Positions 19,685 to 22,600 of a stretch of 64,000 nt of DNA are shown here, one piece after another. The translations under genes and the position numbers were made by a program. Position 1 is the first letter of the stretch. Every line of letters starts with the position of its first letter. Under the pieces are notes generated by a model. That model saw nothing but the letters and a program-made list of their open reading frames with translations, was not told the DNA's origin and did not search any database. The stretch is from positions 12,802,001 to 12,866,000 of the forward strand of contig NC_091100.1 of assembly GCF_024713975.1 (NCBI RefSeq). The letters are read 5' to 3'. This DNA comes from Paralichthys olivaceus. Lineage: Eukaryota; Chordata; Actinopteri; Pleuronectiformes; Paralichthyidae.

Positions 19685-22600
19685 TCAGAGTTTCTGAAGA
19701 CCACTTTGAGGCTTCTCTGTTGTTGAATCATTTTTCTTTTTAAAAAGACTTTTGAGCTTCAGGGATTTCTTGCTCTTTTCTTTATCCTTGCTCCTCTCTT
19801 CTCCAGTCTCAGAAGGGGATGTCAGAGATGGAATGGCAACCCTTGGTGGAGGCAGAGGAGGCTCCGCGTCTGCTGGCAGTCTGGCCTGAGGAGGTGTTGG
19901 AGGGTTGCAGGATTTCTCAAGGATTCCATCATACACGAGCTGGCTCAATGGACCAGCGTTGAACAGATCTGATGATGTCCACGGCCCCTGGGAGGTTACC
20001 ATAAGGTCTGGCTGTCCAAACCGACCTAAAGATGAACTTGATTCAGATGCTCCAAACTCCTCCTTCTGTGTTGGATGTTTAGGTATGTCTACCGGACCAT
20101 CAACTCTATCCCTGATTTTTCCTGCGGGATTGTCAACTGCACTGTCTGTGTCATCTCTTGCCATTCTTGGAATTCTCCGTCTGAGAGAACCAGCAGACAA
20201 CTCATGTTCATTTCTCAGAATCTTCCGGTTTGCTGGTTCTAAACTAAACTCTGCAGAGGACGAGGTATCCATAAGGGCATCAAGTTTCTCTCTGGATAGC
20301 ATCTTTTGGGAAGCAGGATCTGTACAATACTCCAACTCATCCCGTGAGATCCTTCTTGGTGTTCTAGTTGTCTCAACCATTTTGTCCACTGTTAATGCCC
20401 TCACAGGGGAATCAAGCTGACATTCCCCTTTATTCCACGAAAGCTTTCTAGAACCTGTGTCTATGGAAATACCTATAGAATTTCTTGTTATTTTTCTGGG
20501 TACTAAGTCAAACGGATGCTCAGCATCATCTTGTGTTATTTTTCTTAAGCTGCTGTCAAATGAAGTCCCCATCATATCTCTGGATATCTTCCTTGGTGCC
20601 TGTTTATCTGCTGATGCTTCTAATTCATTCCAAATAATCTGTCTAACATCCATTGGTAAATCACTTATTTCTCTGTATATACTCCTTGAAGAAGTGTCAC
20701 TTAAATCCCCTATTGTATCTGTATCTGTCTCTGCTTTCCAGGATGAAATATCTATCAAAGACTCTTCTTTAGACATCTTCAAAGATTCTAAAGACGAATC
20801 CAGCAATTTGTCTTTTCCCATCTTCCTACAGACAACATCTACTTCAAGCTCTTCTGTTGAAACTTTACGAACTGGAACACCAACCTCTACTTCTTTGCTC
20901 AAAGGCTTTGAAACCGAGGGATCTGAAAGTAGCTCAGTTTCATCATGATAAAGTTTTTGAGAGGAAGCATCGACAGTGGGATTACGGTACATTTTGCTGA
21001 GAGGAGGAGAAGTCATGTACTCTGTGTCTGAGTACTTCTCTTGGGAGTCTCTATTAGTGAGAGAAAGGAATGGAAGAAAAGGGGGAGGCAGAAAGGAGGG
21101 AAGGAATTACTCTATGAACAAACATCAATACAGGTGCTGCTGAAACTGTTTAAAACCACTAAAAGTTCTTGGCAAGGAGACGTACTGTTTCTTTAGTGTT
21201 TTACGGAAGAAGCTTTCTTCCTCATCAAAGCAAGGGTAAGGACCTCGGATGGGGATGAGAAGGTCAGGGTCTTGGGAGATCATGGTAGTCAGTGGCTGAG
21301 TAATGACACCAGGACGACGTGGCCGACACACGGTAGATCCCTGTCTTCGAGGAGAACGCTTCAGTGGTGCAACTGGAACAACAATCCAAATATAACAGAA
21401 CAGTGTTGTAGTGTAACTCCAGGCACAGAAAACATGTTCCTAATTGTTCAGCTAGTTGGACGTTGGTGAGGTAACCACCAACATGCTAGTCAGCCATAAA
21501 CATGCTAATGCCAGTCAATCACAATACGATTGCACTTCCTTCCTATATTAGTGGCCTTACATTAACTATAATAAATGATTAAAGTATTTATGTGTTTAAA
21601 ATTCACAATAACGTCTTGTATAAAATATAAATAAAGAGGTTCAGTGGAAATGTTTGGGAAACAAGTGCGAAGCGAGTAGCCAATAAGGGACTGTTGCTGG
21701 GGAAGATACGTATATAGCAAAATAAATGTGGCCAATCAACATTATCGAAAATAATGCCCGAAGGGTGATTCTGATAGCGGCCAAGCCCGGTCTCTCCACA
21801 GTGGTGGAGGAAATCAGATGGTACTAGTGACAATGATGGCCGTGGGTACGCACGAAACAGCATCGCAGCCGCCAAATAGAAAAAAGCTCAAAATTCCTGC
21901 TTCTTACCTGTCATCTGTGGTAAGATTGGTGATTCTTCTAAAAGATCCTCTATAGATCCATGTACAGAGCTATGGCATGAACAAGGTGGCTGGGGCACTC
22001 GGGGCAACCCCAGGGCAATTGAGTCTGAGTAGAGCTGAGCAGTGAGGTTTGCAAGACCGGAATTCCTAATTATGGGAAAGCCGCAGAGGCGCTCAACATG
22101 CTGCCAGCGATGGAGTCGCTCCCGCAGGCAGGCTGTTACTTCAGACAAGGCATTCCTTAACGAGATACAAAGACGTTTGTCAAATACATTACATATTGCA
22201 TATTGACTGGAACAGAACTGGCACAGGTAATTCTGTCACTCACTTTGCTTGCAGGATCTTGTGGTCGACCTGATCTAAAGAGGAGCTGTGGGCAACATGG
22301 AGAGTCCCCAGCAGTGAACTCCTCTTCTTCTTAATCTTCTCTGCCTGCAAGGAAGTAAAGGCAGTGGATCAGTCAACAGCAAGTAGGTTGTCTAGAACAG
22401 ATGAGCTCCATATCCATTGGAACTCATTTCAATTGTCTCACCATGACCAGTCACACAATCATGAAAGATGAAAGATAAAATGTTGATTCACTATTTTCCA
22501 TGTTTTTCAAATATTCTTCTTTAGACATTACCTCTTCCTTGGCGATGGAGAGTTGCAGTTCTGCACTCTGCTTCTTGACGTTGTAGTACTGGACCTCTAC

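Follow-up and report, generated by a model that had tools for sequence, protein, structure and literature searches.

The window, that is, the whole stretch of 64,000 nucleotides analysed here, carries on its minus strand a STIM gene, the exons of which were recognised between about 19.7 and 25.4 kb (contig C8; Table 1). The gene is stim2. Pfam profiles were used to identify its domains, and they recovered the luminal EF-hand (EF-hand_STIM1, 44.8 bits, cut-off 32.2), the loop of which lies within the frame 25131-25349, the luminal SAM domain (SAM_2, 29.1 bits, cut-off 20.5) and SOAR in two exon frames (47.6 and 32.9 bits, cut-off 25). The joined EF-SAM exon peptides scored 210.9 bits against human STIM2 (2l5y) and 152 against STIM1 (2k60), and the KSLFKKK end of the protein is like that of a second copy on contig C22 and unlike that of a third STIM locus on contig C11. 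Upstream of the gene lies rbpj, recognised by exon frames with the Pfam domains TIG_SUH and BTD, and rbpj adjoins STIM2 in human too. The tail is encoded by an open frame of 473 residues (19685-21106, minus strand), in which the last exon is predicted to begin at 21050, after an AG acceptor, with an in-frame join to a GT donor after 21186. This exon comprises, in order, a left flank, a motif array, the landmark VYDGILEKS and the polybasic end. The open frames and the Pfam SOAR matches thus place the array between SOAR and the membrane-binding polybasic end, where the initial annotation had located it. No Pfam family matched the stim2 tail of either the window or the C22 copy at E up to 1. Opposite the tail exon, two abutting antisense open frames, 176 and 175 residues long and with one stop between them, occupy 19890-20948 on the plus strand; they are perhaps a by-product of the codon make-up of the exon. 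Elsewhere in the window, immunoglobulin V-set domains were found by Pfam in two plus-strand open frames (7451-7963 and 10767-11393), which perhaps represent a tandem receptor family, and a small membrane protein domain of the SMIM5/18/22 type (Pfam, 53.8 bits) in the open frame 57978-58310, also on the plus strand.

Table 1. Features of the stim2 gene in window coordinates; units 1-15 are those delimited by the motif finder.
Feature	Position	Strand	Evidence and remarks
EF-hand and SAM exon stretch	23857..25349	-	Pfam EF-hand_STIM1 and SAM; peptides match human STIM2 2l5y best
SOAR-coding exon stretch	21888..22693	-	Pfam SOAR in two exon frames; matches to C22 and C11 in three exon pieces
stim2 last exon, coding part including stop codon	19685..21050	-	open frame, splice sites, landmarks common with C22
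Degenerate array of motifs, 309 residues (unit length about 16)	20057..20983	-	motif finder, lag tests, shuffles, profile
Unit 1	20933..20974	-	motif finder; acceptor Tyr
Unit 2	20885..20926	-	motif finder; acceptor column Leu, Ser one residue later
Unit 3	20843..20884	-	motif finder; closest to the single C22 unit, 7/14 identical
Unit 4	20801..20842	-	motif finder; acceptor column Gly
Unit 5	20756..20797	-	motif finder
Unit 6	20660..20701	-	motif finder; acceptor Tyr
Unit 7	20618..20659	-	motif finder; acceptor column Ile; modelled as helix
Unit 8	20567..20608	-	motif finder; opens strict 16-residue block
Unit 9	20519..20560	-	motif finder; strict 16-residue block
Unit 10	20471..20512	-	motif finder; strict 16-residue block
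Unit 11	20423..20464	-	motif finder; strict 16-residue block
Unit 12	20375..20416	-	motif finder; strict 16-residue block
Unit 13	20330..20371	-	motif finder
Unit 14	20282..20323	-	motif finder; acceptor column Leu, Ser one residue later
Unit 15	20201..20242	-	motif finder and five-unit profile; acceptor column Leu
VYDGILEKS landmark	19910..19936	-	counterpart VYNGILEKS in C22 copy
Asn in EKSC[N]	19904..19906	-	presumed place of human AMPK site Ser680; C22 copy EKSY[S]
Polybasic end	19733..19777	-	C22 copy ends in KIKSLFKKKK

The degenerate array that the initial annotation had proposed in the stim2 tail is real, since the motif-finder units, the lag periodicity and the open frame all exceed what shuffled sequences produce. 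The bounds given there (20081-20965) do span 295 residues, and the slightly wider bounds of Table 1 were used here. The motif finder returned 15 units with a score of 338, where 20 shuffles did not exceed 183; in a rerun the score was 328, with 200 shuffles staying at or below 189 and yielding no more than 8 units instead of 15. Over the array the coding frame is free of stops, the other five frames contain 4 to 31, and none of 5000 nucleotide shuffles left the frame open. The comparison of the tail with itself was positive, with z 4.1 at lag 16 over the whole array and z 4.7 at the same lag in its C half. In the best block, 112 residues chosen by eye, z reached 5.7, 6.5 and 4.4 at lags 16, 32 and 48, which is a regular period, and five units of this block stand in strict 16-residue (48-bp) register. 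The N half alone is weak in the lag test (best z 2.6, at lag 15). An out-of-sample test was made with a profile built from only the five units spaced exactly 16 residues apart. In the N half, six sites reached at least 3 bits where 0.29 were expected, a number attained in none of 1000 shuffles, and two of the six reached 5 bits (P 0.007). At the C end, where the slice truncated unit 13, the profile found one site only, unit 15 at 10.8 bits; the count at 3 bits was not significant (P 0.21), and unit 14 was missed at this threshold. The part of the window tail outside the array contained no site at 3 bits. The unit length of 15-21 residues given earlier differs slightly from the spacings measured here, 12 of 14 of which fall at 14-17 residues, the remaining two being 32 and 27. 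At the DNA level, Tandem Repeats Finder reported two short low-score repeats only, neither of the array's period, the best pair in an ungapped search was 30 nt long at 70% identity, and the copies did not show nucleotide similarity to one another. The array is an old, worn protein-level pattern that is nearly invisible in DNA.

The composition of the units was examined column by column, with positions counted from the putative phospho-acceptor. Arg and Lys each occupy their core columns in 11 of the 15 units, a hydrophobic residue [ILMV] is present in 14 and Asp, Asn or Glu at +2 in 13; Glu at +3 and Glu at +5 occur in 8 units each and Asp at -7 in 9. The acceptor column itself holds Ser in five units, Thr in three, Leu in three, Tyr in two, and Gly and Ile in one each. 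Between units, the core columns (-3, -2, -1, +2, +3) have pN 0.39 and pS 0.90, the acceptor column pN 0.66 and the other columns pN 0.63, where random codons would give 0.73 for both pN and pS. The core is thus better kept than the acceptor, and it is the amino-acid core that persists across units. The pN/pS values serve as supporting evidence only, because the units were selected by protein similarity and the low core pN, which stands without a matched control for this selection, is partly built in. The synonymous sites between units are saturated, and therefore most copies look old. Within the fixed-period block, codon sharing between identical residues does not exceed expectation at lags 32 (8/20) and 48 (4/13); at lag 16 sharing was seen at 15 of 23 residues against 10.7 expected (P 0.06), and some of the duplications may thus be of later date.

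The origin of the array was approached through the other STIM loci of the same genome (one genome of 588 Mb in 25 contigs). Searches with 166 array residues or with 442 tail residues returned the window gene alone, and the other copies were therefore sought through SOAR, which revealed three loci in the whole genome, namely the window gene on C8 and the loci on C22 and C11. The last exon of C11 ends in KIFKKQKK, and by its features we take this locus to be stim1-like. The microtubule-tip motif [ST]xIP occurs once in that exon, as SRIP, and is absent from the last exons of the window gene and of C22 (L006 6232-7062). Two SOAR searches of the genome found this single stim1-like locus, and a second one may be lost or have been missed; zebrafish is reported to have two stim1 loci (PMC11489432). 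The C22 copy is a second stim2. Upstream of it lies a match to rbpj (94% identical) in the same orientation as in the window, which indicates that both stim2 copies stem from the duplication of one block; the distance from rbpj to the SOAR exon is about 62 kb in C22 and about 8.5 kb in the window. In nine well-aligned exon pieces the two copies have 307 of 400 residues in common (pN 0.136, pS 0.735), and the window gene therefore does not have the look of a gene in decay; the tails are much less alike than these conserved exons. The near-saturated synonymous sites suggest that the block duplication fits the teleost genome duplication, and the two genes are most likely teleost ohnologs. The window copy is probably stim2a. 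This name is given as probable because its two grounds are the lower EF-SAM score against human STIM2 (210.9 bits here, 227 bits in the comparison) and the ranking in zebrafish, in which stim2a is reported to be less like the human protein than stim2b (about 49% and 59%, respectively; PMC7291033).

In the C22 tail a single unit, PYRKISREEL (TPYRKISREELLLY), is followed by a Ser/Pro-rich stretch, VYNGILEKS and KIKSLFKKKK. The five-unit profile matched this copy once, at SETPYRKISREELL with 6.2 bits, a modest result against shuffles (P 0.06 for the count at 5 bits, 0.145 at 3 bits, and 0.03-0.04 for the best score), and the motif finder detected nothing above shuffles, 33 of 50 of which reached its score. 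In C11 the profile gave one site at 3 bits and none at 5, the same as in shuffles. The landmark VY[DN]GILEK is preceded by 372 residues in the window exon and by 133 in C22, a difference of 239 residues. The C22 copy was used as a stand-in for the human tail, which has a single PRKISRDE and is about 250 residues shorter. Such a single-motif tail shares with the window copy the gene family, the last exon, the SDT left flank, VYNGILEKS and the polybasic end, and differs from it in having one R-K-I-S-R-[DE]-E unit instead of about 15. The claim that one motif was expanded is supported by this single unit between matching landmarks, and the simplest reading of the sequences is that the units would have multiplied in the window copy, that is, in one duplicate. 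The polarity rests on parsimony and on the human sequence, with the comparison made within one genome; the alternative reading is that the array was lost in C22.

The explanation that we favour, with a probability of roughly 0.42, is that an ancestral motif was multiplied while its core was kept, so that the tail would now be a largely disordered tether bearing a multivalent array of linear motifs, some of which kinases would tune. It is preferred because the units share the basic-basic-hydrophobic-x-x-acidic pattern more than they share the acceptor. The single ancestral motif, R-K-hydrophobic-[S/T]-x-[D/E]-E, would have stood between SOAR and VYNGILEKS with the polybasic end, and tandem duplication of about 48 bp would have multiplied it, after which the copies would have diverged for a long time under retention of the basic-hydrophobic-acidic core. 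As short binding motifs, the units may raise the avidity for the partner of the single motif, or for the tails of adjacent STIM molecules at ER-plasma membrane contacts, and the array would at the same time lengthen the tether to the polybasic end. Basophilic kinases may tune it at the half to two thirds of the units that still hold Ser or Thr. A single-sequence structure model of the tail (mean pLDDT 41, with 379 of 441 residues below 50) agrees weakly with disorder and was too poor for a structure search. Its one better-scored helix (residues 133-149, 17 residues, pLDDT 70-90) lies over unit 7, which suggests that the tail may not be wholly disordered and that local helices are possible. The charge of the array is nearly balanced, with 49 K/R and 59 D/E in 309 residues, which makes direct electrostatic membrane binding of the array itself unlikely. 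The weak spots of the favoured explanation include the N half in the lag tests, the missed unit 14 and the modest C22 match.

The most serious competitor, which we nevertheless consider rather unlikely, is the multi-site phosphorylation switch suggested by the initial annotation, in which each unit would be a basophilic kinase site and graded phosphorylation would alter the charge of the tail and, through it, how far the polybasic end reaches or how it binds the membrane. The prediction of at least six R-[KR]-x-[ST] units was borne out, with six found where 0.74 were expected. An acceptor Ser or Thr is present in 8 of the 15 units, more than the Ser/Thr content of the array would give (binomial P 0.003, for units chosen by similarity), and 7 of the 15 combine it with Arg at -3. 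When a one-residue shift is allowed (units 2 and 14), the count rises to 10 of 15, which narrows the gap to Arg and Lys and favours this competitor. However, five units have neither Ser nor Thr at or beside the acceptor, so that the acceptor is not a feature of nearly every unit, and the acceptor column varies between units about as much as the background columns. Moreover, the commonest residue at +1 is Arg (5/15), which is unfavourable for PKA. Phosphorylation may therefore tune many units, but it is not the feature common to all of them. A related question concerns AMPK, the loose pattern of which asks for basic character at -3 or -4 and a hydrophobic side chain at +4. AMPK-like sites of this loose form number 9 in the array against 4.0 expected (P 0.013, uncorrected) and stricter ones 4 against 0.94 (P 0.012, uncorrected), but the C22 tail is enriched in the same way (5 loose sites against 1.9, P 0.034; 2 strict ones against 0.27, P 0.030). 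The human Ser680 presumably sits in ILEKSC[S]MNQL and not in PRKISRDE; the equivalent place reads ILEKSC[N]PPTP in the window copy and ILEKSY[S]YGQL, with the Ser, in C22. Ser680 of the human STIM2 tail is reported to be an AMPK substrate and a major AMPK site of the protein (PMC13143212). The AMPK connection of the array is thus a lead and not a result. A link to DYRK2 was also considered and set aside, as the DYRK2 paper concerns STIM1.

Two further explanations, both of which we regard as improbable and to a similar degree, dispense with binding by the units. If the array were an entropic spacer, only the roughly 239 added residues would matter, allowing SOAR to reach Orai, or the polybasic end to reach the membrane, across wider gaps. 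The added length before the common landmark is real, the tail model is mostly of low confidence and the matching C22 stretch is Ser/Pro-rich, all of which suits a spacer; spacing alone, however, leaves the kept core unexplained, as a spacer needs no R-K-hydrophobic-x-x-acid pattern persisting across saturated synonymous sites, with the caveat that the units were chosen by similarity. The array could instead be a neutral coding minisatellite, in which slippage multiplied a tolerated stretch after the gene duplication and the copies have since decayed without function. The weak periodicity of the N half, the far greater divergence of the tails than of the conserved exons and an ancestral role covered by another copy are in line with such an origin, while the frame kept open over 309 codons, the kept core columns and the lack of recent copies in the DNA-level repeat searches argue against it.

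The presence of about 15 units may change the way in which the sensor links the ER and the plasma membrane. Should the array prove functional, a STIM tail can be rebuilt through the multiplication of a single linear motif; the motif kept singly in human STIM2 would then be a real element, and the fish copy would offer a natural multivalent bait for the partner of this motif. One genome, moreover, offers a comparison of a one-unit with an approximately 15-unit stim2. Querying the literature with three short peptides of the human tail retrieved no paper, and no description of a repeat in the fish stim2 tail was found among the titles, abstract openings and passages that the literature searches covered.

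Two known systems resemble the window gene in part. STIM1L likewise has a lengthened cytosolic tail, by 106 residues, but there the lengthening arises by splicing of STIM1 exon 11 and adds actin-binding residues (PMC7795233), whereas the present array belongs to the final exon of a stim2 copy, which does not correspond to an alternative exon of stim1. Permanent clustering has been reported for STIM1L, although a later study, in MEF cells, did not see it (PMC7795233). A bolder and, in our opinion, very unlikely reading by analogy would see in the window gene the fish equivalent of mammalian muscle STIM1L, a STIM with a long, multivalent tail that holds ER-plasma membrane clusters in skeletal muscle, and in which control by kinases would have passed to the array from a single C-terminal AMPK serine that seems to have been lost. 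RT-PCR in zebrafish is reported to have shown high enrichment of stim2a in skeletal muscle, with both stim2 genes predominating in muscle, and the authors of the same report found no STIM1L-like sequence (PMC6471419). The argument is weakened by the presence of stim2b in muscle as well, and the window copy is only probably stim2a. The other system is Piccolo, the zinc fingers of which occur twice in mouse and are amplified in a teleost copy, to 16 in zebrafish pclob, with several independent amplifications suggested by the author (PMC3484663). In Piccolo, whole exons encoding a folded domain were multiplied, whereas here a 16-residue linear motif is repeated inside one exon. Divergence of the STIM2 tail and amplification of a repeat in one teleost ohnolog are both phenomena of already known kinds.
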